Of a stretch of 64,000 nt of DNA, positions 1,449 through 64,000 are shown in pieces. This stretch comes from Desmodesmus armatus (Eukaryota; Chlorophyta; Chlorophyceae; Sphaeropleales; Scenedesmaceae), in the NCBI GenBank assembly GCA_007449985.2, contig VIIQ02000066.1, positions 391,501 to 455,500 on the forward strand. Direction: 5' to 3'. Positions within the stretch are counted from its first letter, which is position 1, and each line of letters opens with the position of its first letter. Below the pieces are notes generated by a model. It had not been told where the DNA came from. It saw nothing but the letters and a program-made list of their open reading frames with translations, and ran no database searches. The position numbers and the translations under genes were made by a program.

Positions 1449-1515
1449 AGCAGCTCACAAGTCAGCAGCAGGACGTCCTGCGGTGCATACGGTGCTGTCA
1501 GCTGGTCAGCACACA
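1449..1515 (-). pseudogene. Partial copy of XDH terminal exon
   Basis: On the minus strand this reads [13 protein letters not shown], nearly the same as the last XDH exon, and then diverges before the stop. It lies about 240 bases downstream of the real stop, so it is probably 3' UTR. It follows the pattern of downstream copies keeping the 3' part of an exon. Confidence 0.7.
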
Positions 1516-1751
1516 TGTGTGCTGCTGCTGGCAACGTCTCCTGCTTTCCCCTCCTCCTCCTGCTGCTGTCGTGCTACTCGAGCCTCATCACAAGCTGCCA
1601 GCAGCTTGGTCAGCAGCAGTTCAGTACGGACACTAGTGTCAGTGCCTGGTGGCCATACAAGTGACAGCTGCCAGACAGCATGCAGGCCCACAAGTGTTTG
1701 CCAATGGAAACAGTGCCTTGCTGCCAGATAGTGCTGCCAAGTCGTGGCCTC

Positions 1752-4700
1752 TCAGCAGCTCATGAGCGGCTGCAGGTCCTGTGGTGCGTAGGGTGCTGTC
1801 AGCTGGTCAGCACAGGCCATGCGCAGCTTCTCAGGAGTGGCTGGGGCATCCAGGTTGAACCAACCTGAAGCAGCAGCAGCAGCAGCAGCAGCAGCAGTCA
1901 CACACAAAATCAGCCATCAGCGTGAGTCACGATGTTGGCGGCAACAGAGTTTCAAACCCTAAACCCTGCATTGGTTCTTGCCGCCTCACACACCACAATG
2001 GCTGCCACTCTCCCACAAAAACAATGCCTCTCGGATACGTTGCTACTAACCAGCATATTCTGATACATGGTAGCAGCGTGGTTTGGACGTACATGCAGAG
2101 CATCCACTCCCCCCCCTAGAGGAGTACATCCAAGCTGCCAAAGTCCCCACCCTGAGCACTCTCTGAATGAGGGACTGACAGCACAGAGGCAGCATAATGC
2201 AGTGGCAGTTCCTTATAAACTTCCATCCTTTGCACACCCACCTGTGACTCCCGCGTCGGCTCTTGCTGCATACACTGCATCCTTCAGGGCAAAGTACACC
2301 GCTGCACCCAGGTGGAAGGGAGGCTCGCCCACAGCCTGAGGAGCAACAGCAACAACAACACAAGAGCACAACACTGTTGACCCATTCGTGTCACATGCTC
2401 ACACTTTCAGGGGAAGTACTGTGCATGTAGTACAGTACAGCTGGTGCAACCTTCGAAACAGGGAGTGTCCTATCAAGGCAGTGCATGTGCAGGTCAGCCG
2501 CTTTACTGAATGCCCGTCTCCCCTGCTGCGCTGGTTGTAGTTGCGTACCTTGGAGGAGTGCACAGCGCGTGGGTTGGGTGTGTTCTGCATGAGTGTGACC
2601 CTGAAGTCGAGCGGTATGTCGTTGGCTGTGGGGATCTTGTAAGTGCCAGGGCCCTTGGTGAACAGGTGCCCGGGACGCACCCAAGGATGGGCCTGTGTGA
2701 GCAGCGATGCGACGGCGATGCAGCAGCGATGCGACGGCGATGCAGCAGCGATGCGACGGCGATGCAGCAGCAGCAGTGCAGGAGCAGGTGCAGCAGCAGA
2801 TGCAGCAGCGATAAGGCAGCAGTCAGGCAGCAGCACACCAAAGATGGAGGTATGGGGGGTTGCAGCAGTGATGCGATACAACAACATGCCGAGCACTGAA
2901 GACTGCATGTCGCAAGGTGCAGCAGTGATGCGAGGATGCAGACTGCTTGAAAAGGTTGAGATGGCCTCCAGGTCAATCCAGTAGTCCAGCAGGCACCAAT
3001 CCCAACAAGTCATTCCCCTGGAAAACAAAACCCTGAGCCCACCTTGTCACCCCAGATCATCTCCTCCAGACATAGCCAGCCCATGCCCTGGACAAAGCCA
3101 CCCTCAATCTGCAGGAGCAGCAGCAGCAGCAGTAAGACACTTTTTTCTGCGGTTACAGTGCAATTGTCAGTGCCAACACCAGTCACCGGCGTTGGCACAC
3201 TACAGCCTGCGGAACAACTGCTAGGTCATTTATTACCGACGCACTGCTACAGTGCGACAGGCCACACCTGACTGCGCCATAGTCTCTTGTGGTAATGACA
3301 TAAACTGTGAACCCTCAACCCTGTCTCTATTCAAACCCTATGCCCTACCTGCCCAATGTCGATGGCGGGGTTGATGGGGTTGCCAACATCCATCACAATG
3401 TCAGAGCGCAGCAGCTGCCAGTCACCTGCACAAACAGCACCACAAGGAATCTTGGTGTCATTATGGCAGCAGCACACTAGAAACTCCATCAAATGCCGTT
3501 GCTCCCACCTTTCTCTGTCCTGATAACTTCAGACCTCCCTCCCGTTGCTCCTGACTTTCATGTCCCCACTCCTATGGTGCTGGGCATCTTTCAACAGGTC
3601 TTGGGCGGTGCAACCGCCCCTCGAACGCAGGCCAGGAGTTATAGGGTTCGGGGTTGAGCTTCAAACTTCAAGCTTCCAACCCTCAGACGCACCCCCTGTA
3701 CACCAATATACATAAAGGCAGGTCCCAATGGGGTTGCAGCCAGTCACAACGACCACAGCTGGTAGCTGCCTGATGGCTCACCTGTGAGTGTGTCCAGCTC
3801 CACCTCGCTGACAGCAGCACCAAACACAAAGTAGTTGAACGGCCGCTTGCCACCATACCCTGCACGAAACACACGCAGGCCCACATGTCACAGCACATGA
3901 GCACCAAACCCTTCTGCAAGCCGACTATCCGGCCTGTCCTTCTGCAGCTGCTTTGGTCATACATGGACTGATCACCAAACACGCTGAGCAACCCCTTGAG
4001 GGGTTGCCTCCCTGATGTAGGGTTTAGGGCACCCCTGAAACCCCAGACTATTTGCGCAACAGGCTCCATATGTGACAGGTGGTTGTCCTGTCTGCGTGCT
4101 GTGCAGGTATGCATGGAGCACTCCCAAAAAAGCGCCACTGAAGAAGGTGCACACACACAGCACACGCACACCAGGACGGCCATTTGATGCTCAACATCAT
4201 ACCATGATGCTCAGCAACAATTCATGAGTCATGTGAAGGGGTTAGGGGGCCCCTTCCCCCACCTGTGACCTCTGGTGTTGCGTAGAAGCCGTGTGCGCTG
4301 AGGTCCACCCTGTCCATGTAGGCCTGTGTGGCCAGCTTGGCAAAGCTCCAGCCCTCCTCGGCAGCACGAGCCCTGCAGGAGCAGAGCACATACAGACACC
4401 TTACAGTACAGTAAAGTCTACTCCAGTCCAGTACAGTGCATTACAGTACTTGAGGACAAAGTGCCATCTTTGGCACATACAAACACCTTCACATGCAACC
4501 TGCATATGATGCAGGGCAGACAATCACGACATGCTTGGTGCACTAGTGCCCACAAGAGAGTTCCAGCCACACACGTTTTGTCAGGAGCTTGCGTGGCGCA
4601 ACGTGGAACATCAGTTCAACTGATTGCTCAGTGAACAAATGGCTGCTGTGTTGTTGTGCTGTCGTGCTTCCTGGTGGCCGCTGCTACATGTTGATCATTT

Positions 4701-7700
4701 GCGCTGTACACATCTGTGAATGTTTTCACGCACCTGTAGGGCTTGAGGCGTTCGTTGATCTGCTTGCATGCGTCCAACACAGCCATGCCGTACAGGTCAG
4801 TACTGGCACTGCCAGCAGTAGGAGACGCGTTGGGCACCTGCACAACACATACACACACGCAGTTTGCAAGCTCTCTGTGCATTGGTACCTGCTTGTGTCA
4901 CATTCTGAACTGCATCAAATAAACCACAGAGTGTTGACAGCAGTACATACTGCAAGCAAGTGAGCTAATGATGCAGCCTCAGGTCAATGCAGAGCCACAG
5001 GCACAGCACCGACATTCAGCCAGTCAGAGCGGTACCTATCCAAAACAATATCCAAACACGAAATGTCCCACGAAAGTCACCTTGTCTGTCGATGTTTCTG
5101 CGATGAACACCTTGTTGACAGGTACTCCCAGCTCGTGGGCTGCTACCTGTGCCATCTTGATGTGCAGCCCCTGACCCATCTCCACACCACCATGCGTCAC
5201 CAACACCTGCAGCACACACCACAACAAAAAGCAGCACAGATACAGAGTGTCAGAAGTGATGTTTACACTATTGTTTCACAGCACAATCACACCAGCGCAC
5301 TGAAACCCCAACCAAGGCGGTCTTGCAGAGTACTGTGGAAGTAGACAAGACGCCCCGGCTTCCTCACACCAATGATGACTGACCCCAAGGGTGCAGTTGC
5401 AAGCTGCACAGCAGCACCCTGTGTGGTTGTTTCATGGGCCGTCTGGATTCAAGGGGAGCAGGGGTCCCTGAGGGATTGCAACCTTAGGTGATCTTGCCTC
5501 TAGCCATCGCCCGGCAAGGCCACCCAAGGTTTCGACCCCTCAACCCCTACCGCTGAACCTGGAGCCAAGCCGACAGCCCATGTCTACAGCTGGTGCCTGG
5601 TTGCCGCATGCAGATTTGATCAAAGCTCTTGCGCAGTCATCATGACCCCTGTTCCGGCTGTCCTCAGACCCAGCCGCCACCCACCGTTCCGTCTGTGTAG
5701 ACGTGCACCAGCGCCCCGCCCTGGTTGTAGGTCAGCTTGGTGAACGCAATGCCAAACTTGGTGGGGGTCACAGCCAGGCCACGCTTGCGCCAGCGGTTCT
5801 GCAGCACATCCACGGCACAGCACAGCACGGCACAGCACACAACATAATTCAGCACATAGATTTGACGACAGGGCGTGTCTGTGACATCTCAGATGTATTA
5901 GTGTTTATTTAAGAAGTGGTTGCAAAGCAAGCGTAGCAGACTATAGGTTTGGCAGACAAGCCGTGCTGACCTGCTTGTTGAAGTCGTCTGCTGCTGCCCG
6001 CCTCTCCTCCCAGCCTCCTGCCTGCTGCAGCACCGACTGCCAGCATGGCACGACCTGGCAGTTCTCCATCGTCTGCAGCACAACAGCCAGCAGAGCATTG
6101 CAGCACCAGTCAGCAGTAGTCATAATGACGCACAGCAGGGCAATAAATGGGGATCTATCCCAATAACTGTTGCGGGACCCCAACCTCTGCGCACCAACGT
6201 GCGGCATCTGCCAAGATCCACCCAATGCAGCGCGCAGGACTCTCATCCTTTGGGGAGGATGTTGGTGCGCTTGCAGAGACTGCAGCTGTCTTCCAAAAAA
6301 ACATCCAAGTGATGTGCGCGGACCGCAAATCCACTGCGCACCATCAGAAGACACCTGCCGACACCCACACACGCTACGCACAGGACTCTCTCCAAGAAGG
6401 GTGCATGCCCCCCCCCCCCCACCACCCCGCACGCACTGGCTGGAACCCCAGAAGTCAAGCAGTTCAAGCACCAGCATAGCTTGGTGGGTGCTGATGCCTT
6501 TGTACGGCTGCAAGCCTGACCCAATCTGTCCTGGCCTGTAATGCAAGTGAACCCAAATCACCTCCTTGCCCCTGAGTGACCCCTGAATCGCTGCTGGCCA
6601 TTATGGAAACACACAACCCCTCCTGGGCCTTGATTGAACCCCAACCTCCTTGGCCCTGAAAATTGGTGTGTATTGTCCAGGGACTCACTCTTGTTGTGTA
6701 CAAAATGTTTTGAACGTGATCTGTTCAATCCTGTGGCTGCCGGGGATTGATCCCGGGTTTCTGCGGCCACAACGCAGTGTTCTACCACTAAACTACAGCC
6801 ACCAGACCCAGCAGATTTGGCTTCAGAAGGCAGGGCAGGTCTGAGTGGCGCATCCTGCAGTTGGTACACACCACCGCCGCTGGCTGTCTGACTGACTGAC
6901 TGGCTGAGTGGGTGATAACCACTGGGTATGGTGACGCCTTGATTTACAAGGGCGGGACATGGATTGGGTCCCAGGGCTTGCATTGGGTCGGCTGGGCCTC
7001 TCGAGCCTTTTTGTAATGAACGCTGACACTGATACTGACACTTATACCGACTGACTGCATTTAAAAAGTCATATTGGCTCACCATGCCGAAGTGTGTGAC
7101 ATCACCCTCCCTGTACAGCAGGGGCTCCCGCACAGCTAGGGGGCTCAGGTTGACAGCGGCCGCCACGCGCTCCAACACCAACTCAGCAACCATCAAACCC
7201 TGCAGGGGACATGTGAAAGCCATGATCATGAGTGTTAGTTCTGTGCGCACACCTGCACATGCTGACCCTGGCATTGAGGGTGGTTGCCACTGGCCAGCAC
7301 ATCCAAGAACCAACAGCCTATAGACCCTGGACAGACACAGATACACTGGGCACGCACCGCCTGGGTGCTTCACCAGATGCTGCACTGTCCGTGTTGAGAC
7401 ACCCATAGCAACCATAGGGCCCTGACAAGACGAACGCAACACCCATTGCAAAAAGCAGTTTCGATATCAACCTGATACATAGCATGCTCCACAACCCTGG
7501 TCAGTCCCAGCTGCACACACAGCTCCACCCACGAGGGTTCTTGACATCCTGCTGAACCCCAGAGCTATACCTGTGGTCCGCCAAAGCCCCTGAAGGCAGT
7601 ATTGCTGGCAATGTTTGTGCGGCACATGTGGCCTCGCACGCGCTGCGCTGGGAACTTGTACACGCCGTCGGCATGCATCAGCGCCCGGTCCATCACTGCA

Positions 7701-10700
7701 CTGCTGAGGTCCCAGCTGTTGCCTGCAGGGCCAGCACAACCACGATATTCTTATGATGACGGCAAGATCTGAAATGAAACATCTAAAATTTGTTGGTAAA
7801 TGCAGGAGCTGATTGAGTCCCACACCTTGTAACTAAACCAAGACGATATAAACCAGTAAACCGTACTTCCAAGCTTACCTGCATTGTTGTAGAGCTCCAC
7901 GTCCAATGCAGTCACCTTGCCCTGCTGAGTGAAGCCCACCTTGTACTTGGCCAGGAAAGGGTGGCGAGTGCCTGGAATGGAGTGAGGGTGTCCACAGAGG
8001 GGGATACTTGGAAGACATGTGTGCCTTTCTAGGTCAACTCGCATCATGCATGGGTCTGGAAACATCGCCGCAAACACGTATGGCATGCATGGGTGATGGA
8101 AACGAGATGAGCGTGTACAGGTTTCAAGAGCAAGGGTGCGAGCAAGCTGGCCAGCACAAGCCTTATCGGATGGTGAGAGTGTGTATGCAGACCAAGGGGA
8201 CAGGCAGCATTTGCAAGAAGTGTGGGGATGCTTTCTAATAGGCACAGTCAGGCAATCTGGATCTGACCCCGGTGCTGGATCCACAATAAATTACACTGTA
8301 CGTCCGGGTCAAAGCAAGCCATGCATATCATGTTCCCTGCTGTGCCGCCCCCTCACCAGTCATCTGCATGTCCTCATCTCGGTCCAAGACAGCCTTGACA
8401 GGCCGCCGCAGGTGATAGGCTGGCACTGCTGCTGCACAGTGGATGAAGATGCTGCAGCAGGACACCACACAGCACACAACAAAACACAGCAGAACCTGTC
8501 TTCAGCGACAGCACTCAGACTCGAGAGTCCAGGGCACGAAATAGCACTGTTCCAAAGCCTGAGCGGAGTTCGCAGGTGCCTTGGGCTTACAGTCTGGGAA
8601 AATCGTCAATGCGTGGCAGCTGCGCATAGTACCTCAACGCCCTGCATGCCTGCCTGGTTCAGGACAACTGGAACATGGATTTCCTGTCGGTCTGAAACAG
8701 GCAGGCATAAAGGGTGCTCAAGACACAATGCGCTGCCGCCGCACATCTGGATAGTCTATCGCGTTTCTGCATCCGCGGTTGATTCTGAGCCCGTGCCAGC
8801 ATCTTTTTGGGCAGTCAAGGCCGGGGAGGATTCACCTGCGAGTCTCCTTGCCTCCAAAGCCACCACCAATGCGCTTCGTCTTGCAAACCAGCTTGTTCAT
8901 CGGAACACCTAGCGTACTGGCCACATACACCTGCACCAGCAGTAGCAGCACAAGGCAGCCACAGCAGCAGAAGCAGTGATGCGCTGAGAGTGGCAGTAAT
9001 GATGCAGCTGGGACGTAGAGAGTCTGCACTCACTAGGAGCTTTATTGCAGACTTACCACACAGCTACTGGCAGTACACCAAGTACACCACTGCTGAGCAA
9101 GCCAGATGAGCACATGCCCATCCTGCATGTGTCAGACACTAAGCTTGATGACAGACGATACAATCATCATGACAGTCAGAAACACTGAGGGTGTGTCTAG
9201 TCACGCACCGACGAAAAACTGTGTGAATGCAGCCTGCCTAGTGCCCACCTGGTGCTTGTTGGGTGCCTGTGTGCTGCTGATGAGCAGGTACTCATCACTC
9301 TCTGTGGGTATCACAATGGCCCCATTGGGCTCCAAGTAGAAGTGCTCCTGGCCACCCAGCTTGATGGTGCCCTCCAGCACATGGTCAGCAGCTGCACAGG
9401 TTCAAACAAATGCAAGAATGACACCAGCAGCAGTAGCGATGGATGAGGGTACAGCGTACATGTCTGCTTTGCTGAAGTCCGAACTGGCTGCTGCTGGTAT
9501 ATACACACCTAGGGGAAGGTGCCATGGCCCTGGATAGAAAAGGTGCGAAACACGGCTTGATACATTTCATTCATTCGCAGCTTGTGTACGTGATGGCTTC
9601 TTTCGTTTTGGCTTTGTACCGCTACTGCTCACCCGCAAAGCCCGCCTCGAGGTCGCCAGACACGAGCGAGTCCCCGTGGTACTGCTCGTAGTAGCTGTTC
9701 GCCTCAATTGCGTCCTCGATGCTGATCACAGCTGGCAAATCCTCGTACGTCACCTGAACGGCCTTTGCTGCGCGGCGGGCGAGGGGTTCCGTCTCCGCGA
9801 CCACAACGCCGATGATCTGCACGGCACGCAACAAGAACAGCTCAGAGACCCAGGGCAGTTCAAATGCTGCTTCTATTGATTCGTCTTGACTAGAATCTCA
9901 ACGAACCTCAACTGTATACTGCAGTTTTGATCCCAGCGACAACTGGCACCAACATGGCTGGATGTCCAAAAAGGCACCTGTGCGCTGTCGCGTGAGCTGC
10001 CTCGGCAAACCCTGACCATCACGCCAGCTCGTTGAGCTTGCAAGCCTCAAAATCTGCAGAATCGATAGTGATATAAAGAAGAATGCAACTGCACCGTGCA
10101 GCTGCGGCAGCTGGCGCTCATGTGCTGGGGCTGGGGCAGCTGCAGGCAAGGGCGGTGAAGGGGCTGCAGGGGCAGCTGCAGGTTGCTGCAGCCAGCAGCA
10201 CCAGCAGCAGGCGCAGATTGAGCACAAGCCTCACCTGTCCCACACATGTGACCTCCTTGGTTGCAAACACCTCCTCATCGTGCATGATGGGCCCAATCAT
10301 GTTGTCACCCGGCACATCATCAGCACCATAGTAGCCCACCACACCTGCATGAAAACACAGCAGCACATTAGCGCAAGAGCCAGTGACCTCCGGCGAGTCG
10401 CACACTGCAGCAGCTACCGGCCTAGTACTTCTTTTTAGTCACTAGATGACACCGACCCTGCCACCAGTGGTACCTGTGCAGCTTTGTCAAACTTGAACAA
10501 CATGTCTGTGTGGGGCATCCAGAGTCCACCTCAATCAATTCATGCACATCACTGTACAACCGTCCCGCATGAGAGCACATACAAGTAGCACTCCTGCACA
10601 CATATGGAAGGGACCAGCTGCACCTACCAGCCATTGCCAGCGCAGCAGATGCGTCAACGCCCAGCAGCTTGGCGTGCGGCTTCGTGCTGGTAACAAACGC

Positions 10701-13700
10701 GGCGTGCAGCACGTTGGGCGGGAGCGCCACATCGTCCGTGTACTGCGCCTCCCCTGACACCTGCGGCCAGCACATGACATGAACAACTTCACGCACTGTC
10801 AGTTGAAGACCAGGCTGTGTTGGCATGTCACTGAAGCTAGAACCACCCTTGCGCATCTCTTCTCCTTACGTCCATCGCACCCCCTCTCTCACCGGGTCCA
10901 CGGCCTGGAATTTTTCGAGTCTGCCTGTCCCCTCGTTACTTGTAACAGCAGCGGCCCCACATTGTTACAAGTGAATGTCATATTTCAGCGACATATGGAG
11001 CTGCAGGGCATTTGTTTTGGTGTTCAGACACCAGGTATCTGAACACACCTGAGGTCAGCACGAAAGCGCCTGTAACCCAGGTGTATCCATCTTGGTGCAC
11101 TGAAGGTCCTGTTGATGCTGTCGACATTTCGCGCACGTTTGGGCAAAAGCCCCAAACGTTTCCAGCTTACACGAACGCCACCCATGCTATCAGCTTAGAC
11201 TCACTTTGGCACATCAGACATGCAATAGCCTTATGCTTTGTTGGTGGCAGAAGATATCAATTACCGCACACTAACAAGCATAATCTGGCACACATGAACA
11301 GCGCAGAAACAATCCTGGCACGTGCAGCTGTCTGTTCATGCGCACACATCGCTCCAGACAATGTGGCGGAGCCACAGTCTCTGGAGTGATGGGGTTGCAC
11401 CCACAGCTAGCTGCACGTGCAGGGTTTGCTCATGTGCTGTTGACATCGCCGGCACAAACACTGCATGCATTGTGAGTCTTGGTTCCCTAAAACGAGCCTA
11501 AATCAAGCCCATTAAAAGCAACCAAACTGCGTAAAAATACGGGTACTTTGTTTATTGGTCCCCTCAATATGCGCTACTAACAGCACCAGTCAATGGGCCC
11601 CCTGGGCCCATTGACTGATACACGTACCCCCCCCCCCCCACCCCCACCCCCCCTGCCTCGCTCTCTGTGTAACAGCAGCAAACCCACAATGTTGAACACA
11701 CAACAACACAACTGATTGCGTGGGCTGACAAACCCACCTGCAGGTCAGCACTCGCGTGTTTGTAAGCTCAGAAAAGCAACCATACTGCTCAAGAAAACAC
11801 ACATGTAACACATAATGACATAATCAGTTGCGTATTGTGACGAAGAACCCACCTGCAGGTCAGCGCTCGCGTGTTTGTAGTCCTTCCCAACCTCCTCGGA
11901 GCCGTCAACAGCAGCAGGCACAGGGTGGTGGAACTGCACACCACGCACAGGGGGCCTGCAGCAACCGCACAAACACAAGTAGCGCAGGAGGGACCAGTGA
12001 ACATAGTCAATTGTTGATGTTGAGGGTTCAACCCAAAACCCTGACTCCTTCCCCAGCCTGTGTGATGGAGCTGCCAGACCGCATCACACACTGCCTTTAG
12101 AGCAACAGCTTTATAACGATACTATCATGTCTGCAGCTGGCACTGCTGTGCAGCTAACTAAGCTGCCATCGGAAGGCAACAATGGCAACACTGTTGCATC
12201 GAATGCAGCAGGAGCACTAAGCCACAAACCTGTGGAACACCTGTGCTGCTGACTGGTAGCCGGGAGGCAGCTGGGGCTTGAATGAGTCTGGGTGCAACGC
12301 CTCCATCTGCAGACACACCTGCAATCCCAAAACAGTACAGAACGCTTGACTCGTTACATCACAGTGCAGGGCATGTGTGCATCTGTGCTATGTTGCTGTC
12401 ACATTGCTGTTCACCGTACATCAATCTGCAATCAAGCGGCATTTTGTAGGTGTTGAATGTCATACTATGACATCTACATCATGTGTCTAGGTGCAGCACA
12501 TCTACCACCCGAAGCCGTTGAAAGCAATACTGTTACTGCCCATGTTATTTTCATCCCCCACAACGCCTCGCCAAATCCACACAACTCACATGGACGTAGA
12601 ACTTGTACAGGAATGAGGCTGCCAGGCTGTTCCTGTACTCCCGACGCCCCCCCCCCCCCCCCGGGTGCAGTTAGGACCACATTGACAGCTGGCCTCCTCT
12701 CAACACACATCACAAACCCAATGCTTCCACAATCACCCACCCATGTGGCCCCCATACGCCTCACAAGACCCTTATGACTTACGTGCACGTAAAACTTGTA
12801 CAGGAATGAGGCTGTCAAGCTGTTCCTGTACTCCCCTCGGCCCCCTGGTGCTGTTGGAGCCACGTTGACATCTTCCCTCAGCGCTGCCAGGGCTGACTGA
12901 AGGCTAGCCTCCTCCCAAGGCTGACCCAGCAATGCAGCCATCGTCTGCAGCAGTTGTTGCAGCAGCAGCAGCAGCAGCAGCAGCAGCACCAAGCTGCAGG
13001 TGGGTAGAATGCAGTTGGAGTGACAAGCACAGTTGAGGTGATGTCAAAAGTATTCAACGAGGAAATGGGGTGTGGCGTCCGGTATAGCTCATTGCATGCA
13101 CAGAGAAAAACAGCAGGAAACTTCGCCCTGTGATATTGCAAGTCTTGCCCAAACATCACGTTTAGCCAAATTGTTGTGGCCAAAGCTTCTGACACACCTG
13201 TGAGGCCATGATAGACTTGGGTGCCACTCCACCGTATGCGATCGCCACATCAGCCACCACCCAGCTGCCCTCAACATCAGGGGAAGGCTCCAGCCGCACA
13301 CGCATGCCTGCACAACACACAACAGCACACCACAGGACGCACAGTACAGCACAATATCACACGTCATGAGTGTGGTTGCCCGCCTGTCCGATTCAACAGC
13401 AAACTCAGCTTGGCATGCCCCTCTGGCCTGCTCAGAATCGCCAACAACATGCAACACAGGAGCTGCACACACAATGCAAGTCGTTGCTTAGCACCACACG
13501 CCAGGCTGGCTACAGCATCTGCCGTGACTCTGCCGACAGGAATGAAACCTTGCAACCCTCTGTCACCTGCGTTGACGATGGCAATGTCGTCGTCCCGCCT
13601 GGGCGACTGCTTGAATTCCCGTGTGAACTCCAGCTGCTGTGTGAAGGGGATGTGCACTGAGAGCAGCACCTCATCAGCCGCCATGTCCACCTTCCTGCAA

Positions 13701-24417: not shown

Positions 24418-24454
<37 letters not shown>

Positions 24455-29084: not shown

Positions 29085-29118
<34 letters not shown>

Positions 29119-30340: not shown

Positions 30341-30371
<31 letters not shown>

Positions 30372-32596: not shown

Positions 32597-32629
<33 letters not shown>

Positions 32630-32945: not shown

Positions 32946-32981
<36 letters not shown>

Positions 32982-33651: not shown

Positions 33652-33688
<37 letters not shown>

Positions 33689-33848: not shown

Positions 33849-33884
<36 letters not shown>

Positions 33885-35462: not shown

Positions 35463-35504
<42 letters not shown>

Positions 35505-37297: not shown

Positions 37298-37334
<37 letters not shown>

Positions 37335-39073: not shown

Positions 39074-39109
<36 letters not shown>

Positions 39110-41330: not shown

Positions 41331-41361
<31 letters not shown>

Positions 41362-41503
41362 GCCTCACCCATCATAGCGCATAGAAAAAAACACTGCCCA
41401 CCTGTCAATCTTGGTAGGTATACCGCGGGCTGCCAGCTGTGCCAGGGGGCAAGTGCTAGCAAGGTCCAGCAGCAGCCTCTGCGTGTCCGCTTGGCACGGC
41501 CTC

Positions 41504-41538
<35 letters not shown>

Positions 41539-42841: not shown

Positions 42842-44112
42842 CTGCAGGAACAACACCAGCACAAGGAACAAGTAGGAAGGAACAACAGTCAACGGGTCAT
42901 GTTGTCACCTAGCAAAGAGCTGCTGTGTTGTGACAACATGCTTTGAAAGACAGCAGCCATGCCATCTGCAGCAGGCTCTGCTGTTTGGTGGACTTTGTTT
43001 GACTCGGCGCCGTGCCCGCCAGCAGCAGAGTCGCTGCTTACGGCTGGTGTGGCCGCCTGCTGTTGGATTGCCGTGTTGAAAAGGTACAGCAGTGCGGGGA
43101 GTAAGTAGCAGGGGCCACCTGTGGCAATTGCTGCTGCGCTGAGGGACAGCTGCAGCAGTGGGCCTATCGCGTGTCTGCGTGTGTATGTCTGTATCATGCG
43201 GCAGAGCATGTAGCCTTGTCCAAGCAGTAGCCAACCATGAGCTGCGTTGCTGTAGGTACACGCAGCTCCCTTCTGCTGCGCCTGCTGCGCTGGCTGGCTA
43301 CTGGATGATTGGCAGTGCCTCTGTGTAGAACGAACATGACTCTGACGTTTCACCTGCTGCTGCACTACACATAGTGCATGGACTGTACTCAACAGTATGC
43401 ACTACTGATGAGCCTGCATCACCCTGTATGTCCTACGTGCAGGACTGTGCCTCCCCACCCTTCCTTTCGAGCATATGCTGGCCAGCCTAGCCCCGGCAGT
43501 GGAGTGTCTGTCATCACGCCAGCACACATGCACTCATGCCAGGCTCACCGGTACGAGGGGGTAGAAGTCTGGAGGCCCCAAGTCCGGCATCAGGTCCGGC
43601 TGGTCACATTCCAGATGATAAGGCACCAGATCCGGATGCATCGCAGCTGTCCTGCACCCAAACTGTTGCACCTGCTGGTGTTGTGGCGTCACTGGTGTCT
43701 CACAGATGCCATATGCGCCATTTTGTCTTCATTGTAAGACTTTCTGAGCCACAACACAGACTTTTGTGCCACAGCAGCATCACAACACATCAGTCCAGCC
43801 CAAGTACTGTTGAGTGGGTCAGTCCGCTCAAGTAACTTCGTGAATGTACAGTTACAAAATCAAAGGTGTCAATGGGTGGATTGGAAGCCAGTGTTGTCAC
43901 AAGTCCGAGCTTTTGTATTCATCAGTTCGCCCAAACCTCCACCATGACTTGCAAGGACAACTTGAAAGTGTACAAATCATTCATTCTAGATAAAACCTTT
44001 GTCAAGCCTTTGGTGCCGGGGTCGTCATTGCAGCGTCTTCCAGTGATCTAAATCCATTTCAGTGATCTCAGCTTTTGCTGTGCCAACTCAGCTGACACGC
44101 AACACAGGCCGG
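42842..44112. promoter_or_regulatory. MED12 5' region and divergent promoter
   Basis: This stretch lies between the first secure MED12 exon (minus) and the ATG of the next gene (plus). A minus-strand open frame at 42889-43392 could hold the MED12 start (MAAVFQSMLSQHSSSLL before a GTGACA donor), but its phase does not fit the next exon. Promoters of both genes should lie here. No clear TATA box is seen. Confidence 0.4.
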
Positions 44113-55174: not shown

Positions 55175-58100
55175 TCACCAGTCAACGAAGCGCGACAGAG
55201 TGGCGTGCGCCTCGTTGAGCTCCTTGGCCACCTTCTTGCGCCTGCAGCGTTCGACAACACAGCGTGACACAAAACACTTGGTTTGTTGTCCCGTTTTTAT
55301 GGGAAAGATACTAGGGTACTTGGGTTTTTGATGGGGAGAAAGGCGGAGTAGTGACAAGCCTTTCATGATGGCGTGGAGCGTCATGTGGACGGTTCTTCAA
55401 CACACGTCAGTGATGGGGCAGGACTACAGAGGGACTTCACATGATTGAAGCAGTTGCTACTTGCAATAAGTCTGCAGGCACGGAAGTACTGTGAGTGAGA
55501 CCAGGGTTGGTGATCCAGCCGAGCCTGCACGCTTTCCGAAATGAAGCTTCACATCATACCTCTTCAGACATACCAGACACACCAAATCACACCAACACTT
55601 TCATCATGAAAGCAACAGCCTGTTGGCAACAGCCTGTTGGCAACAGCCACACACGCACCTGTAGAAGATGGGGCAGTCCCTGCTGGTGCAGAGCACGTCC
55701 TGGTGGAGTGAGCCCTGGCAGCGCTGGCACTGAGACCACAGCGCACCTGCGGCAGCAGCAGCGGAGGCGGGGGCCGGGGGGGGGGGGAGGGAGAGGGAGA
55801 GGGAGAGGGGGGGGGGGCATCAGCATGATAAGTCTTCATGAAGGTGGCAAGGTGTGGAGGGATTGCAGCAGCAGCGGGGGGTGGGGGATGGAGGGCTGCA
55901 GCAGCAGCAACCGTGGCAGTGTCAGTGCTCAGTCAGAGAAGCAGCTGCTGCTGCTGCTGCTGCGGCAGTGGTAGTGGTGCGCTACAACAACAGCAGCTGC
56001 ACCAGCAGAAGCTCAAGGGACACTCAGAAACCCAAACCAACACTGGCACCACCAAAAATGCTTCCAAAACAGGAGGTTCCTCGCCCTACCTTCTCCTACC
56101 CTCCTTCCCTATGCTGCGTCACACTAAGCAGAGGTTCGAGCAGCCTGATACCCGATCCCCCTCCCACAGCCCGCAGGTGTGCCAGTTGTGCCAGATCTCA
56201 ATGCTGCTGCTGCTGCTGCTTCACACTTTGAAGAATTCTTTGCTCCACCACGCTGCCCCCCCCCCCACTCACTCACCGAACTGCTGCTCCAAGCTGTTGA
56301 CTGCTGCCAGTTTTCTCGCGTAGATCTCGCCCTCTCTGCTGGCGCAGTGGCTGCACAGGCTGCTGCTGCCGTTGCCGCTCTTGCCCGATGCCTCCTCAGA
56401 CGTCAGGGTGGCCCTGTGTGTGTAGGGGGGGGGGAGTTAGGGGGAGAGAGTGCACAAGGGTTGACACATGAGCTGCAACCAGCCAATCCACTTGACAGGA
56501 ATGTGTGTGTTGTTGGGTGGTCAAGTGCAAGACGCCTCCTCAGACGTCAGGGTGGCCCTGTGAGAGCATGTTGGAATCGCACATGAAGTTGGTTACAGAT
56601 TGCTGACATTTGAATTGGGTACCAGGCCAAGCCTCCAGCCCATCTCATCCCCTGCATGTCATAACTGGAAGCCTTTCACAGGCTGTAGGGCACTGCCCTA
56701 CGCCAGGCAACTTGCCTAACTTCTACAAACCCGCTTGGACATATTCTGTCGCCCACCAGCTCACCCCCCCCCCCCGCGCACACAATCAACGCACCTGCAC
56801 GCCAGGCACGTTGGCTTGACCTTTGCAAAGCGCATGATGCCCCCAGAAGCTGTGGAAGGAGTGGCCACCGATATGCTGCGCGTGTGTGCACCTGGGAACA
56901 CAGCCAGACAGGCAGGCAGAGGCGAACAGGCAGGTCAAGACAGGCAGACGATCAACAAGCCACCACACAGACCAGCAGAGCAGGCCTGCTCCCGCGCACC
57001 ACCTAGGCGGAAGGGAGCTCGGCACAGCGGCTGTGCTAGCACTTCCCTAGGGATGTAAGGGGGCGTATCGTAGGTACTATGCCGTAGGTGGCTTCGGCAT
57101 AGAATACGGCGTAGGTTGCGGTTTCGACCCCGAAATACAAGGCGCATATATGCTTGCGGAATCGGGATTACGGAACTGCGCCTACGGAAAATACGGAACT
57201 ACGCAAGTAGGTGACCTTGAAACCTACGGTTGCTCACACCCCCTCTCACACCACACCACTTATCTGTCGCTGCCCCCCCCCTCCCCCCCGTCCCTGACCA
57301 CACCGCATTGCCGTACTCTCCCCCACCCCCCACCCCTCGCCCCGCCCCCATCGCTCACCGCTGAGCAGTTCTGCCTTGACGTCCTTGCAGACTGGTTCAA
57401 AGATGCCTCCCTCCCCCCCTCTACCACCAGTCTTCCCGCTTCACAAGTATTTAAAGTATGTAAGTCTTCAGCCTCCCTCCCCCAAACACGCCACCAACCA
57501 CCAAGCAGCCTGGCAGCCAGGCTACCAGGCTGCTAACAAAAACCATCGCTCACCGCTGAGCAGTTCTGCCTTGACGTCCTTGCAGACTGGTTCAAAGATG
57601 CGCATGAGTGGCTGTGTGAGGTGGTGGTCCAGGTAGTGCTGAACGTCAATGGGAAGGTTGTGCTCCAGGGCGTAGATGGGGTCCTCAGCCTTCTCATACG
57701 CCTTGGCTCCTGTAAGGGGGGGGGGAGTGGATGGAGGGGGGGAGTGCCAAGGAGGGGCAAAGGTGAGGGTGGTCTGGTGTGAGTGCAGGCACTAAGGTCA
57801 TTGGGTGCAGGTGTGTGTGTGTGTGTGGGGGGGGGGGGGGCGTGGTGGTCCAGGTAGTGCTGAACAACAATGGGAAGGTTGTGCTCCAGAGCGTAGATGG
57901 GGTCCTCTGCCTTCTCATACGCCTTGGCACCTGGGGGAGGCGGGGGGGGGGGGGTGCGCAATGAGCAATCGGAGCGGTCCGGGGATGTCTTACAAGGTAT
58001 GCAGGCTTCCTGCACAGAGAGCATGTGGTGCGAGCGGCACACGGGAAGCTAGGATGGCAGCTGCAGGTGCTTGGGTGGGCGCAGTCGACACTGTCACACC

Positions 58101-61100
58101 ACATCCATGGGTGTGTGTGCACGCCTTGATGTATGTGGTACTTGCCCCCTCCCATTTTACCCTTGGCTGCATCATGCCAATGATTGGCACATGAAGCACA
58201 AGATTCTGGCCCCCCTCTGATGGTGTCCCCTAGCCCACCGCCGCACAGCTTGTCACGCTGCGTCGTTGTCGCAGTCAAGAAGCAAGCATACTCTCCCTGA
58301 GCTGCTTTGGTAATGGCGTAAGGCGCTCGATTCCCTATGGCAGGTGTGGCGCCTGGCCAAGCCCCCCCCCCCCCCTCACCCTTGGCTGCCTTGATGATGA
58401 CAAAGGGCACTGGCTTCCCTATGGCTGGTATGGTGCGGGGCAAGCCCACCGCTGGGAGGATCCCCCCCGCCCCCACGCACCTCTTCAGTCCCCCCCCCTC
58501 ACCCTTGGCTGCCTTGATGATGACAAAGGGCACTCTGTTCCCGATGGTTGGTGCTGTACGACTCATTGAACCCCCCCTGCCCACCCCCCTAGCTGCCTTT
58601 GGTGATGACAAACGGCACTCTGTCGCTAATGGCAGGTGCGGTGGCTGGGCATCCCCCCTCCCCGCCGCACTCCCCCCCCCCCCCCCCCGCCCCCACGCCC
58701 CTCACCCTGTGCTGCCTTCAGCATGACGTATGGCATTCTGTCTCCAATGGCAGGTGCTGCTAGCCTCCGAGCCCCCCTAACCGCCCTCTTAAGTCACCCC
58801 CCCCCCACCCAAATGCTCTCCCCCCCCCTCACCCTTTGCTGCCTTGATGATGACAAAGGGCACTCTGTCCCCTATGGTTGGTGCTGTTGCTAGGTCCCTC
58901 TTGCGCCCCCCCCCCCCCCCCACACACACCTCTTGAGTCCCCCCCCCCCCGCTCGCCCCCCTGCCCCTCACCCTTTGCTGCCTTGATGATGACGAATGGC
59001 ACTCTGTCCCCGATGGTCGGTGCTGTTGCTGGGTCCCTCTTGCGCATCTTCTCAGCCAGTTCAACGTGGGCACTCTTCACCTTGTAGTCCTCAGCCTCCT
59101 GGGCCAGGGCCTGGGAGGAAGAACGGGGGGGGGGGGCATTCAGCAGAAAGGAGAACATTGTGTGGAACGATTGGAGACAGTATTCTGACTGTTAGCCCTC
59201 AGCCTCCTGGCAAGGGCCCGGGGGGGGGGGGGTGTAAGGGGGGAGGGGGAGAGGGAGGGAGGGGCAGGGAAACAGTAGCAGGGGGAGTGTGTGTCTGTGT
59301 GTTGTGATAGGGGACTTAACGAGCTTGTAGTCCTCAGCCTCCTAGGCAAGGGCCTGCGGGGGAGGGGGGAGGGACGGGGGGCGGGGGGGGGGGGGGGGGG
59401 GGGGGGGGGGAAGGAGAGGGTCTTCACCTTGTGGTTCTCGGCCTCTGGGGCCGGCCCGGGCAGGGGGGAAGGGGGAGACTGAAGCATTGGACTTGCGTTG
59501 GGAGTGGCAATGGGGGGGAGTGTGGTTGTGTTACATGCGTGGTGGTGATTCAGGAAGTGGGGGCGGGGATAGGGTCAAGTCTCTCTGACCCACCTTAGTG
59601 ACCACCAGCTGGCTCATCTACCTTGTTCAGGAGCAGCCCATTCACGCACGCTCCCAGCTCCCCCCCCATCCCTCGCAGCCCCCAGTTGCTGCCCTCCCTC
59701 ACCCCCTTCTTGTACCCCTCCCCCCCTTCCGCCGTCCGTCCCACCTCCCCCCCCTCTGCCCTCTGCCCTCCGCCCCCCCCCCCCACCCCACCCCCGTTTC
59801 ATCCCCCCCCCCACACACACACACCTTAGTGACCACCAGCAGGCTCATGTCCACCTTGTTCATGAGCAGGTCCCGGATGATGCCCTTCACATACTCAATG
59901 GCACCAGCCTCGTCACGCTCTATCAGAATCTTGTCAAGACCTGGGGTGAATTGGGGGGGGGGGGGGGGATAGCACAGGGCATAGGGGACACTGAGCCTCA
60001 TGACCGGGTAGACACATAAAGTTCCTGCCCAACTTGTGGTGAAGGTTTGGACACAACCCCTGCGCATACTGCATGCGCGTTTGCTTGATGAACGGCAATG
60101 ACTGACAACCTTGCACAAGGCTTACGGACCGCTTAGGGGGGGGGGGTGCAGTGACATGCCATCTCGCTCCTCTCACTCTTCTCACTCACTTGTTGCCACC
60201 ATCTTGCGCACCAGCTCACAGTTGTCTCGCCGCACAGTCTCAATGCCCTGCGGTACAGCACGTCACACATACGACATGTACAAAAAGAGTGAGAGCAGGA
60301 CGCCACAGCCATGTTGTCAAGGCGCACACTCCCAATGCCCTGCAGCACAGCACGTCACACAATTATGCCACAACTACGCCACCACACTCGAGTGATAAGC
60401 AAGAAGAGGCAAACACAAACGGGTCGATGCACAGTTTGTTGCCTCGCAGAACATATCATGGCGCCAGAAATGACAATGATGAATCTGATGCAAAAAGACA
60501 GAGGGGTGTGAGCATGTAGAACTGCAGTGCTGCCCTAAGTCTGCCCTTGGGGCGGGGGGGGGGTGGGGAGGGGCAACAGACCTGATCTTTGTGTCCCCCC
60601 TCCCCCAGAACCCCCCTCCCCCCCCCCCCCCCCAGTTTTAAACTCCCTCAGTCTGCAATGTGTCAGGAGTTCACCTTGCTGTCCATCTTGTCCCACTTGT
60701 CAGGCTTGGTCCACAGCAGCCCCGCATACCGCTTCTTGTTCATCAGAAGGTACGGGAAGTACACCTGGGGAGGCAGGAAGGGGGGGGGGAGGGGGGGGGG
60801 GGTCTCCCGAAAGGGGGGGGGGTGTAAGTCAACAACTGTTCATATGGAGAGCCACTGGCTCAGGGGATGTGAGCATGTTTAGCATGCTGGGCGACCACAC
60901 GCCCCCAACTCCGGACTGCAGTCCAGCTGGATGACCATGTCCTGCTACGATGCTTACGACTCGGTGATAGACTGGGTCTACACACGCAGGGCTGGATGCA
61001 ACATATGTGACCACACACCTTCCTGCGCCCCTACCAAAGCTGGCACCCACTCCCTTGTGCCCCACACACCTTTTCGAACTCCAGCTTGACGGGTGGTGGG

Positions 61101-62125
61101 AACTTCTGGCTGATGAGCGTTGCTGCCTTGAGGCCCAACTCCATGGCCTCACCAACATCAGGGACCTGGGGGGAGGGGGGGGGGGCGGCAGAGAGGGGGT
61201 TTGTGGGTGTGGGTGCGGTGTTGGAAGCAGTGGGGGCCAGGTTTTTTTTCTTCAAAAAAAGCTCAGCGTTTATAGCACAATGCAAGTGGCCAACTGTGCT
61301 CTACGCTATCAACACAATCGGATGTTTGTATGCGATGTGCGAGCATGAATGCCTGTTACGACCCCCCCCCCCCCCCTCTCTCCCTCTGCCCCCCCCCCCC
61401 CCCTCTCACATACCCCCCCCCCCCCCCCTCACCTTGAAGTTGACCATGACTGAGTCGGTGTCTTCGTAGACGACCTCACAGTCCGCCTTGTAGCCCTTGG
61501 CCTTATCATTTGTGTCTTTTGATGTTACCAAGATTGGAGAACTATATGCGGTGCATGAATCTCTCGCACGAACACCCTCCCTCCCTATGCCCTCTCTCTC
61601 CCTCCGCCCCACTTGCACTGTACACCCCCCCCCCCCCTCCCCGCTGCCTCCCCACCTTGAAGTTGACCATGACTGAGTCAGTGTCTCCGTAGATCACCTC
61701 ACAGTCAGCCTTGTAGCCCTTGGCAACACAGAACTCAGACTGGACACACACAGACACACACACAGTGGCAGCCTTCAGCCCCTCAGCCATGTTGTCAGAA
61801 TGCAGCCCATGTATATGTATACCAAAGGCTTATGTAGACCACAGGTGGGAGGAAGAGGGGGAGGCAGGCAGGGAGTGTTTGGCACCCGCACAGCGTCAAC
61901 ATAAAAGGCGATGGGCATACAACAAACATCACACATTCTGACTCAACATAAGTTGAGTTGATCACACACCCTCTTGGTGCACTTTTGCAGTGTAGGTTTA
62001 TCTCTGTACCCTCACCTGCACCCACTCCCGTGTTGCGTTGATCATCTGCCGCCCGTATGCTGTGGTGGTGGCGCTGATGGCTAGGCACGGCATCTTGCCA
62101 ACAGTGGCACCTGAATGACACAGTA

Positions 62126-62167
<42 letters not shown>

Positions 62168-63035
62168 CAAGCAGCAGCAGTGGCAGCAAAGCATCACAGC
62201 GTTAACCTGGCGCTGCCTGCCAACACCTTACAGACCAAGTGCCGTCTGTCTGCCTGCTGTTGGCGGACACTTTGAGTGCCACTGCCACCCTATTGCAAGC
62301 TGCATCACACCAATGCACAACCTGACAAACCCTCGTCCTCACTTCAACACCCCCCCCCCCCCCCGTTGCCCCTTCCGGCCGTTCACCCCTTTTCAATCGC
62401 ATTATACCTGTGAAGCCATACACGCTGACACCTTGAGTGCCAGCTGCTGCCCTGTTACCAGCTGCGACACACCAATGCACAAATACCACATCCCCATGTA
62501 GCCACTTTGACCGCTGCACCCCCCTCCCAGGGCCGTCATGCCCCCCCCCCCTCCAATCACAAATTACCTGTGAAGCCGTACACGCTGTTTGCTGACACCT
62601 TGAGTGCCAGCTGCCGCCCGTGTGCAAGCTGCGACACACCAATGCACAATTCACTCTCCCGCTGCGCAACATCCCCCCCCCCCCCCCCCCCACACACACA
62701 CCACTGCAGCCCCCCCCCCCCCCCCCCCGGGCGTCAACCCCTTTCTTACCTGTGAAGCCGTACACGCTGTTTGCTGACACCTTGAGAGCCAGCTGCCGCC
62801 CGTCCAGCACTGCACGCCTGAAGGGGTCAGACTCCTTCTTCAGGTCAGCCTTGGCCCTGCACAAAATATGACAGCAGCATATATGAGGATACGGCAGCAA
62901 GAGGTCAGCCTTGGCCTTGAACAGGAGGAAACAGGGGGGGTGTATTGGTGAAGTGAAAAAGGGGGAGATGGATTCCGGCCCCGGGGGGGGGGGGGGGGGG
63001 GGGCTGCCTTTATCTGTTGTGTTGGTGGTGGGGTG

Positions 63036-63080
<45 letters not shown>

Positions 63081-64000
63081 GGGTCAGACTCCTTCTTTGA
63101 ATCAGGGTGTGTGGTGTTTGGGGGTGTGCTGCACGGACTTGTTGCAAAAACATTGTGCTGTATCGTTGTGGTGCTGTTGACAATGACAACTGCACCAGCA
63201 AGGGTAGCAACTGATCTCCATTGATGATGCTGGGGTATGACATGCACACCGGGGTCTATACAGGCGTCTAGGTGGCATGCAATTAGACAACGTGCCCCCC
63301 CACCCCACACACACAAAGCGACCAGGATGCATGTGTTCTTCAGCGCCCCCCCCCCTCCATACCACACAACTACCGCCTGCCCACCTCTTCCTAGCTGCCA
63401 GCAGTTCCTGTAGGATCTCAGGCACTGGCAGGGTGCCCCTCTGCACACCACACGGTATGGAGTGCATCTAGGTGGCATGCATTTAACCCCCCCCCACCCC
63501 CACCCCTGCCTGCCCCCCGCCCAGCACCCAGCTACACAGGATGCAGGTGTGGGGCATCAGCCCCCCCACCCCCACCCCCCCTCCCACCCACCTCTTCCTG
63601 GCTGCCAGCAGCTCCTGTAGGATCTCAGGCAGGATCCCCTTCTGCACACCACACGGTATGGCGTGCGTCTAGGTGGCATTCGCTTCGACACCCCCCCCCC
63701 CCCACCCCCACACACCAGCCCCAGCTACCAAATGCAGGTGTGGGGCATCAGCTCCCCCCCCCCCCCCCCCGCCCTCCCACCCCCCCCCCCCCTCCCACCC
63801 ACCTCTTCCTAGCTGCCAGCAGCTCCTGCAGAATCTCCGGCAAAATTCCCTTCTGCACAGTCGCCTTCACAAACATGTCGCCACACGGACTCTTCTCAAA
63901 CGACTCAGGGGGCAGCCGAGATGCTGCAGAGAAGAGAAAGCAGTACAGGACAGGACAGGACAAGACATAGCATTGAGTATGGCAGTGCAGTACACTTCAT
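55175..64000 (-). CDS. POLD1: DNA polymerase delta catalytic subunit, C-terminal part
   Basis: Replicative polymerase. Fourteen exons in phase give the last 483 residues: 63803-63923, 62750-62856, 62016-62110, 61656-61739, 61070-61165, 60675-60764, 60190-60247, 59825-59940, 58972-59110, 57554-57709, 56795-56891, 56277-56413, 55659-55746, 55175-55241 (stop 55175-55177). Motifs: [15 protein letters not shown], the B-family template/primer block [13 protein letters not shown], catalytic [43 protein letters not shown], and the cysteine modules CLACR...CSHC (CysA) and [19 protein letters not shown] (CysB, the 4Fe-4S site). The end is [13 protein letters not shown]. The exonuclease and N-terminal parts lie past the window edge. 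Most introns hold poly-C/G tracts and partial exon copies. Confidence 0.95.
56533..56562 (-). pseudogene. 5' partial copy of POLD1 exon 56277-56413
   Basis: A CACAG acceptor followed by about 24 bases (ATLTSEEA) identical to the start of the exon that lies 120 bases downstream in transcript sense. Confidence 0.85.
57055..57235. other. TACGG-rich island in POLD1 intron
   Basis: About 180 bases with many TACGG/CCGTA words and several short inverted pairs (for example CCTACGG and CCGTAGG), unlike the C-rich sequence on either side. It could be a small non-autonomous insertion. I see no clear terminal repeats or target duplication. Confidence 0.4.
57360..57940 (-). repeat. Partial copies around POLD1 exon 57554-57709
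   Basis: Upstream copy, about 57842-57932, keeps the exon's 5' part ([20 protein letters not shown]) and ends in a G/C tract (57829-57840). Downstream copy, 57358-57404, keeps the 3' part ([16 protein letters not shown]) and the GTGAGC donor. The intact exon lies between them, so this one locus shows both halves of the pattern. Confidence 0.9.
58299..58900 (-). repeat. Six 3' partial copies of POLD1 exon 58972-59110
   Basis: The exon end ([14 protein letters not shown] followed by GTGAGG) recurs at about 58827-58895, 58703-58770, 58586-58650, 58497-58565, 58376-58445 and 58299-58345. All lie downstream of the intact exon, with rising divergence, and several are separated by poly-C runs. Four keep a perfect GTGAGG-type donor. 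Confidence 0.9.
59197..59460 (-). repeat. Three 5' partial copies of POLD1 exon 58972-59110
   Basis: 59197-59222, 59325-59355 and 59423-59460 repeat the beginning of the exon ([12 protein letters not shown]) in decayed form, with G-rich tracts (plus strand) beside each, including about 59384-59410. All lie upstream of the intact exon in transcript sense. Confidence 0.8.
59593..59640 (-). pseudogene. 3' partial copy of POLD1 exon 59825-59940
   Basis: The exon end ([15 protein letters not shown]) recurs with an internal frame change and the GTGGG donor. It is separated from the intact exon by a C-rich stretch. Confidence 0.85.
60316..60342 (-). pseudogene. 5' partial copy of POLD1 exon 60190-60247
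   Basis: CTGCAG acceptor followed by [10 protein letters not shown], against [10 protein letters not shown] in the intact exon 70 bases downstream in transcript sense. Confidence 0.8.
61433..61500 (-). pseudogene. Copy of POLD1 catalytic exon with YEDTDS
   Basis: Repeats most of exon 61656-61739 ([21 protein letters not shown] plus a GTGAGG donor). The invariant Gly of YGDTDS is Glu here, and no proper acceptor precedes it, so it should not be used. Poly-C runs flank it (61361-61376, 61390-61402, 61411-61427, 61626-61637). Confidence 0.85.
62126..62176. repeat. AGC trinucleotide run in POLD1 intron
   Basis: About 15 AGC triplets on the plus strand (CTG-rich in transcript sense), just upstream of the acceptor of exon 62016-62110. 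Confidence 0.9.
62255..62650 (-). repeat. Three 3' partial copies of POLD1 exon 62750-62856
   Basis: Copies of the template-binding exon end ([15 protein letters not shown]) lie at about 62567-62650, 62406-62490 and 62255-62330. The first two keep a GTAA/GTAT donor. The second has lost SANS. Poly-C tracts (62352-62364, 62670-62690, 62711-62728) lie between them. The intact exon is upstream in transcript sense. Confidence 0.9.
63037..63083. repeat. GT dinucleotide run joined to poly-G
   Basis: About 13 GT units followed by 20 G on the plus strand, in the POLD1 intron between exons 62750-62856 and 63803-63923. Confidence 0.9.
63380..63640 (-). repeat. Two 3' partial copies of POLD1 exon 63803-63923
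   Basis: 63583-63640 and 63380-63435 repeat the exon end ([19 protein letters not shown]) with the GTGGG donor. Both end in C-rich tracts on the plus strand. About 200-base spacing between copies matches a repeated exon-plus-intron unit. Confidence 0.9.

Follow-up and report, generated by a model that had tools for sequence, protein, structure and literature searches.

In a 64,000-nt window of an algal genome (positions 391501-455500 of contig C62, at the contig end; the genome is 115.8 Mb in 831 contigs), we found that introns contain partial copies of the exons beside them, in which an exon edge is usually kept together with its splice site. The genes concerned include those for XDH (xanthine dehydrogenase), POLD1 (DNA polymerase delta catalytic subunit) and a MED12-like protein. 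Such copies had been noticed in a first-pass annotation made by reading the sequence, and the observation is correct and general within the portion of the genome read. The copies follow a regular geometry, are in excess at splice junctions and diverge from their exons as coding sequence does. Our tentative explanation, to which we would give slightly less than an even chance, is that the introns of this scenedesmid-like alga bear short tandem arrays seeded at splice junctions, in which the exon is a permanent template and units are exchanged, the last of these being a step which we infer.

Partial exon copies and the side on which they lie

The exon structures of XDH and POLD1 (45 exons in total) were obtained with a purpose-written spliced protein-to-DNA aligner, using homologous proteins as queries. 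For the remaining loci a gene finder was trained, which was exact on 40, 35, 34 and 34 of 45 held-out exons in rounds 1-4; the final version, whose training included the window, gave 39 of 45 exons exactly, and XDH and POLD1 were taken from the homology models instead. Counts for all models refer to 304 kb of sampled sequence, containing 25 gene models and 344 exons in 19 sequence blocks. Introns were regarded as pre-existing, and each exon with 60 nt of flank was aligned to its own introns at a threshold of 32 bits.

Repeats in the window are local: self-BLAST gave 50 non-self pairs, 48 of which were direct repeats no more than 5 kb apart, and over the 304 kb direct repeat pairs within 1 kb numbered 186, against 27 inverted pairs. 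In XDH and POLD1 we identified 29 partial copies in the introns flanking 16 of the 45 exons, including 17 downstream copies (exon end plus donor), 9 upstream copies (acceptor plus exon start) and 3 exon-internal copies, with none on the wrong side. A side-scored comparison of exons with their own introns had been suggested in the first-pass annotation, and when run on the modelled exons it returned these copies, whereas 0 of 258 trials of exons against foreign introns reached 32 bits (118 weaker matches, maximum 24.7). Of the copy-bearing exons reported there, those of XDH (6, 7, 8, 11, 13 and 33) and of POLD1 (eight exons: 1, 2, 4, 7, 8, 9, 10 and 12) were recovered and, for the at least three MED12 exons, right-side copies at gene-model exons 5, 14 and 15, the identity of this gene being backed by PF09497; the copied exon 6 of a gene of unknown function, also listed there, was not located. 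The XDH gene and its copies are as follows:

1755..18883, minus strand: XDH (xanthine dehydrogenase), 33 coding exons, from spliced alignment to T. obliquus XDH (P0121)
1447..1513, minus: donor-side copy of the end of exon 33 (1755-1864), 82%
11731..11764, minus: donor-side copy of exon 13 (11853-11955), 97% over 34 nt
12555..12652, minus: donor-side copy of exon 11 (12783-12944), 81%
13951..14073, minus: donor-side copy of exon 8 (14213-14378), 80%
14489..14777, minus: two acceptor-side copies of exon 8, from sequence comparison
15435..15489, minus: acceptor-side copy of exon 7 (15198-15345), 80%
15761..15799, minus: donor-side copy of exon 6 (15963-16040), 90%
17393..17459, minus: exon-internal copy of exon 3 (17591-17780), without splice site, 84%

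Two annotated T. obliquus XDH proteins that share a gene name (P0122 and P0124) differ around one exon, where one of them repeats 23 residues of the exon end with one residue changed. This spliced-in copy seemingly belongs to XDH exon 19, where no copy was found here.

The part of POLD1 lying in the window contains the following:

56272..63996, minus strand: 3′ part of POLD1 (DNA polymerase delta catalytic subunit), with 12 exons modelled in the window
56531..56562, minus: acceptor-side copy of exon 12 (56272-56413), 97% over 32 nt
57348..57406, minus: donor-side copy of exon 10 (57554-57709), 59/59 identical
57842..57956, minus: acceptor-side copy of exon 10, 89%
58364..58906, minus: donor-side copies of exon 9 (58972-59110) in an array, five of them scored, with G-rich intron between
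59193..59475, minus: three acceptor-side copies of exon 9
59588..59636, minus: donor-side copy of exon 8 (59825-59940)
60313..60361, minus: acceptor-side copy of exon 7 (60190-60247)
61366..61501, minus: donor-side copy of exon 4 (61656-61739)
62256..62649, minus: donor-side copies of exon 2 (62750-62856), two of them scored, plus a decayed third visible in the alignment
63295..63648, minus: two donor-side copies of exon 1 (63803-63996), tandem units of ~210 nt

An additional 3′ exon of POLD1 is suggested at ~55178-55276, and the 5′ part lies on contig C514, so that the gene is split over at least two contigs. Both contig pieces (the end of C62, and C514/L033) bear arrays of copies, a possible obstacle to assembly. 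On C514 one exon of POLD1, which is outside the counts given above, has five donor-side and two acceptor-side copies.

The MED12-like gene contains the following:

27674..43590, minus strand: MED12-like gene, 30 exons predicted by the gene finder; N-terminal part matching Pfam PF09497 (E=5e-13)
37333..37529, minus: acceptor-side copy of exon 37065-37173
39131..40278, minus: tandem array across the short predicted exons 9-10, where the gene model is unsure
41396-41473, minus: donor-side copy of exon 41560-41735, with 9 synonymous and 0 nonsynonymous differences
41114-41223, minus: second donor-side copy of exon 41560-41735, with 7 synonymous and 6 nonsynonymous differences and a stop

Across all models, 91 copies overlapped an exon: 63 lay on the right side, 10 lay on the wrong side, 14 were exon-internal and 4 comprised a whole exon. 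A further set of 28 matches was confined to intron flanks. Right-side copies occurred at 47 junctions of 41 of the 344 exons, in 14 of the 25 gene models, 9 of the 19 sequence blocks and several contigs, in agreement with the claim that several unrelated genes are affected. Their identity to the exon ranges from 68 to 100% (median 85%), and the graded divergence described earlier is therefore real. Copies had also been said always to keep the splice site proper to their side. This is true of the homology models (26 of 29 copies, with none on the wrong side) but not of the gene-finder models, where the 10 wrong-side copies come from MED12-gene exons 9-10 and from models in L019, L024, L025 and the part of C62 that precedes the window; it should be noted that several of these models are doubtful or low-complexity. 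If one exon must stay complete, what is left over upstream will be an acceptor with the start of the exon, and what is left over downstream will be the end of the exon with a donor.

These junction-anchored arrays are a concrete and countable source of intron sequence, bearing on the long introns of chlorophyte algae, though recognisable copies occupy only 5,861 of 139,363 intron bases here (~4%), so that a major contribution to intron length is not shown and the suggestion of a general intron-growth route goes beyond what the counts support. In a comparison made in Chlamydomonas, the driver of intron length was described as probably ancient and its advantage as unknown (PMC8226300). Our predicted introns have a mean length of 439 bp and a median of 296 bp, with G+C at 0.578 overall (0.54-0.66 per 4-kb step of the window). 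Intron length and G+C are similar to those summarised for T. obliquus, which has introns of mean 462 bp, a G+C of 57% and only 15.7% coding sequence (PMC5966456). The host had been taken for a volvocalean alga, but the nearest named proteins are from Tetradesmus and Scenedesmus: the POLD1 protein is 92% identical to its closest match, 89% to that of Tetradesmus obliquus and 76-77% to those of Chlamydomonas reinhardtii and Volvox, the XDH protein is 70-72% identical to those of T. obliquus and Scenedesmus, and a LON-domain gene (L023) is nearest to Scenedesmus.

Tandem geometry and excess at splice junctions

Clean tandem arrays were found at POLD1 exon 1 and at exon 3 of the LON-domain gene. 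The latter consists of four tandem units that all encode the same peptide; any two of them are separated by 4-10 synonymous differences and by no nonsynonymous one. Unit lengths are 159, 153 and 156 nt, the introns of the first three units differ at 4-9 of ~70 sites, and the ends of the exon are placed identically by three homologues. The first-pass annotation had explained all copies by tandem duplication with one breakpoint in the exon and the other in the intron. When the nearest copy at each junction was aligned permissively over the predicted head-to-tail unit, at least 0.8 of the unit was covered at 19 of the 47 junctions, 0.5-0.8 at 11 and less than 0.5 at 17. The side rule and the coverage of half a unit or more at 30 junctions support that explanation, and the 17 junctions below half do not. 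Tandem duplication explains the geometry well, but in its simple form it falls short of the junction excess and of the divergence described below.

The intron parts of the copies are also uneven. Flanks were closer to those of the source exon than foreign splice-site flanks were (p ≤ 0.05) in 19 of 28 copies with at least 90% exon identity and in 17 of 35 copies below 90%. In 28 of the 63 right-side copies the intronic part of the match is at most 16 nt long, and the duplicated exon parts measure 12-118 nt. At POLD1 exon 2 the nearest copy is 98% identical to the exon over 58 nt, with outer flanks like those of the older copies.

One explanation for such incomplete units is patch-type repair, in which staggered breaks near junctions are filled in and joined, leaving a short direct duplication with unrelated filler. 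The shortfall at 17 of the 47 junctions fits this, as do the 6 of 14 nearest copies with at least 90% identity that match less than half of the predicted unit. The donor-side copy of POLD1 exon 10 is a case in point, being identical to the exon at all 59 positions while its flanks are no more similar than foreign ones; for its 136-nt spacer a genome search that skips common words returned no further match. Small tandem duplications have been described that arise when break ends are filled in and then joined (PMC8355091), and these are likewise local, direct and short; the abstract of that work does not tie them to splice junctions, as they are tied here. Against this explanation, the nearest copy spans at least half of the unit at 30 of the 47 junctions, and random breaks leave unexplained both the 28 matches ending within 16 nt of the splice site and the scarcity of intron-only duplications. 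Patch-type repair would cover the birth of copies only and could be combined with our preferred explanation; we judge its chance to be low.

The unmatched spacer between some copies and their source (17 of 47) might also recall transposons or introner-like elements inserted beside splice junctions. Usual target-site duplications are mostly far shorter than the 12-118 nt duplicated here, 48 of the 50 repeat pairs in the window are local, and the single spacer tested, that of POLD1 exon 10, did not lead to a dispersed family in the genome search that skips common words. We consider that such elements have a negligible chance of being the source.

We clustered local direct repeats into families and classed them by their position against the gene structure. 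Over all models there were 42 junction families, 6 intron-only, 2 exon-internal plus intron and 15 exonic, and in XDH and POLD1 there were 16, 0, 1 and 1 of these, respectively. Random tandem duplications were simulated on the same gene structures and searched in the same way, keeping the coding sequence whole and drawing unit lengths from 35 observed spacings. The simulated ratio of junction to intron-only families was 0.63-0.90 (four age ranges, two gene sets). Junction families are therefore ~8-11 fold above the expectation from random tandem duplication, and by our own arithmetic the probability of 0 intron-only families out of 16 under the simulated ratio is < 1e-5. Junctions are thus special, either at the birth of copies or in their survival, and breakpoints placed at random are not borne out.

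These numbers bear directly on the explanation favoured in the first-pass annotation, that ordinary tandem duplications occur at random, are noticed where exon sequence is recognisable and remain as neutral relics. It yields the side rule without extra assumptions, and it accounts for the graded identities and for the 30 junctions at which half or more of the head-to-tail unit is covered. However, it expects more intron-only than junction families, and for this and for the divergence reported below we regard it as unlikely, although not negligibly so. Steady growth outwards from the exon was not supported: the nearest copy was the most exon-like in just 4 of 11 arrays, 2 of these 4 being tied, and units are shuffled and not age-ordered, which is a minisatellite-like feature. 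In the POLD1 array on C514 the third of the five donor-side copies is the most exon-like.

Divergence of the copies from their exons

Codon counts were made for 58 of the 63 right-side copies, after dropping 2 in L019 and 3 low-complexity copies in L025. Differences between exon and copy per site at codon positions 1, 2 and 3 were 0.065, 0.056 and 0.211, a pattern much alike in homology-modelled and predicted genes. There were 207 synonymous differences in 749 sites and 136 nonsynonymous differences in 2260 sites, giving a nonsynonymous/synonymous ratio of 0.22, compared with 0.52-0.60 for neutral copies simulated and taken through the same BLAST and counting steps. This rules out detection bias as the source of the synonymous excess, and the copies as a set do not look like neutral relics. 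Fifteen of the 58 copies had no nonsynonymous change or indel, yet carried 58 synonymous differences in 180 sites. At least four synonymous changes and nothing else were found in 7 of the 58 copies, whereas simulated neutral copies of this kind numbered 0 of 495 and 1 of 383; the seven observed ones sit at four junctions (L023 exon 3 on both sides, MED12 exon 5 and POLD1 exon 1) and so are not independent. The two copies of POLD1 exon 1 have synonymous to nonsynonymous differences of 7:0 and 4:0, and the seven copies of the C514 exon sum to 22:7.

Faster synonymous change in the exon (3.6-fold) was considered as the only cause and fits the mean ratio of 0.22, but gives clean copies, with at least four synonymous changes and nothing else, in 8 of 470 cases where 7 of 58 were seen. 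Divergence before copying fits both the mean ratio and the clean class. The copied piece would then have come from a functional version of the exon that was already different, either through exchange with the homologue or by rotation of units through the exon position.

The clearest pattern of this kind is at XDH exon 8. Its two acceptor-side copies agree with each other at 75 of 75 exon positions while each differs from the exon at 9 of 75, and of 117 intron positions aligned between the nearer copy and the true acceptor, 116 match. From this we infer exchange of units at this exon. The mixed order of units in the arrays and the exon-like copy of POLD1 exon 2 with its older flanks point the same way, and exchange is overall a probable step.

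In our preferred explanation, a local duplication, usually with a spacing of 100-250 bp, would place an exon edge and its splice site in the adjoining intron, with break repair or template slippage as the likely cause. Selection may then let the duplication survive only where one complete exon remains. The exon, not being free to change, would serve as a lasting homologous seed, and unequal exchange or conversion among the exon, its copies and probably diverged homologous chromosomes would remake, move and mix the units, while unanchored intron-only duplicates would decay. This turnover would explain the junction excess, the intron surroundings that do not match, the mixed order of units and the coding-like divergence. 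Copies which leave the exchange would decay into decoys with frameshifts, the true site presumably still being found by splicing. More broadly, exon edges and their intronic copies could form one recombining pool which includes diverged homologues, so that untranslated fragments evolve like coding DNA; this is possible but, in our opinion, doubtful. Were it so, splice junctions would be self-renewing nurseries of tandem DNA feeding intron growth, a suggestion to be treated with comparable reserve. The coding-like divergence of apparently untranslated fragments, provided that it stands up, would show that exons and copies are exchanged frequently.

Several results weigh against exchange. Indels totalling a non-multiple of three occur in 15 of the 58 copies, showing that much of the copy set is decaying. 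Over 42 copies there was no overall clustering of mismatches inside a copy (Fisher p = 0.30), and patchy conversion inside copies is therefore not visible. Each array offered too few informative sites (1-6) for the four-gamete test of mosaic units. Among the 21 copies that have at least 30 aligned intron sites, divergence was lower in the intron part (0.151) than at fourfold sites (0.273), a relation that no simple clock would produce. Inter-allelic exchange would need high allelic divergence, as L023 reaches 10 synonymous differences in ~20 sites, and a second POLD1 locus was not found in a search of the genome. C514 also yielded nine matches in intron flanks, all of them weak (33-41 bits), and at a different exon an exon-internal copy with a ratio of 1:2, which was kept out of the 22:7 sum.

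Differences which are mostly synonymous are also what alleles would show, and the copies could be an assembly artefact in which diverged haplotypes or strains were set side by side as false partial exons. False exon gains derived from haplotypes are known, and as outlined in the report of them (PMC9516828) they resemble our copies in being partial, within genes and allele-like in their differences; POLD1 is moreover broken between C62 and C514. Unlike those cases, there are no Ns in the loci counted, arrays have 3-5 copies and the L023 units are of similar length. The frame-breaking indel totals would not be expected of alleles, identity falls to 68% and only a single POLD1 locus was found. 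We give this explanation a small chance.

Conservation of protein sequence would also follow if the copies were functional coding pieces, for example alternative cassette exons, and one of the two annotated T. obliquus XDH proteins does hold an extra 23-residue exon-end copy. Judged by their splice sites and reading frame, ten of the 58 copies could serve as cassettes, but these appear unconstrained, with 26 synonymous to 32 nonsynonymous differences compared with 181:104 for the other 48, and the 15 copies with frame-breaking indel lengths also speak against such use, as does the absence of the repeated peptide from the aligned LON-domain proteins of five relatives. Cassette function was rejected as a general cause on the ratios of the ten capable copies, and we think it very unlikely.

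Decoy splice sites and related systems

Splice dinucleotides are intact in 51 of the 63 right-side copies, which is about the neutral expectation for their divergence and in this respect agrees with neutral decay. Measured against true sites, 32 of 37 decoy donors and 15 of 21 decoy acceptors score at or above the 10th percentile, and decoy sites do not seem to be purged. The earlier suggestion that splicing tolerates many decoys stands as far as copied sites scoring like real ones lie next to the true site; that the true site is chosen correctly is a likely extension of this. Genes rich in decoys are natural experiments on how the spliceosome chooses among near-identical sites.

Partial exon duplication in introns, small tandem duplication at break sites and intron gain by tandem duplication are all known kinds of event. 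New introns have been described that arise through tandem genomic duplication of AGGT-bearing exon segments (PMC3443670, PMC2891723). As far as these descriptions go, the likeness is in a short tandem duplication within a gene whose outcome is decided by splicing; there an exonic segment becomes a new intron, whereas here it is existing introns that acquire pieces of exon edges, each with its splice site, and in some genes this has happened repeatedly. The internal exon duplications classed by Exonize (PMC12343006) are likewise partial or degenerate exon matches within introns. Here they affect 41 of 344 exons, with arrays of up to five scored copies and a side rule, although prevalence in the two studies was obtained by different methods.

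Minisatellite arrays turn over through unequal and inter-allelic exchange. Our arrays resemble them in their short tandem units, mixed order of variants and, presumably, gain and loss of units, but differ in that one unit is tied to an essential exon, so that variants would be filtered for protein sequence. Among the open-licence papers that our searches listed, no title or abstract opening described arrays of exon edges anchored at junctions as a feature occurring throughout the genome of an alga.

Some further repeats were observed. An array of ~200-nt units lies inside one intron (L024:3926-4718) and is among the only six intron-only families. In a gene for a cysteine-rich protein (L025; C600:20001-30000), whole predicted exons are seemingly repeated in tandem within the coding sequence. 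At 30000-30400 of the window there are short dispersed repeats (30-80 nt, 78-100%) which also occur on several other contigs and are apparently low-complexity or mobile. A second, diverged B-family DNA polymerase gene (L034; C9:1-4000) has conserved motifs in common with POLD1.

The introns are also asymmetric in composition. In 302 introns of at least 60 nt, the first tenth has G 0.354 and C 0.219 and the last tenth has G 0.251 and C 0.306, while runs of at least 8 G are distributed 89:22 between the first and second intron halves and runs of C 12:39. As a speculation, the G-rich start and C-rich end of introns could pair or promote R-loops.

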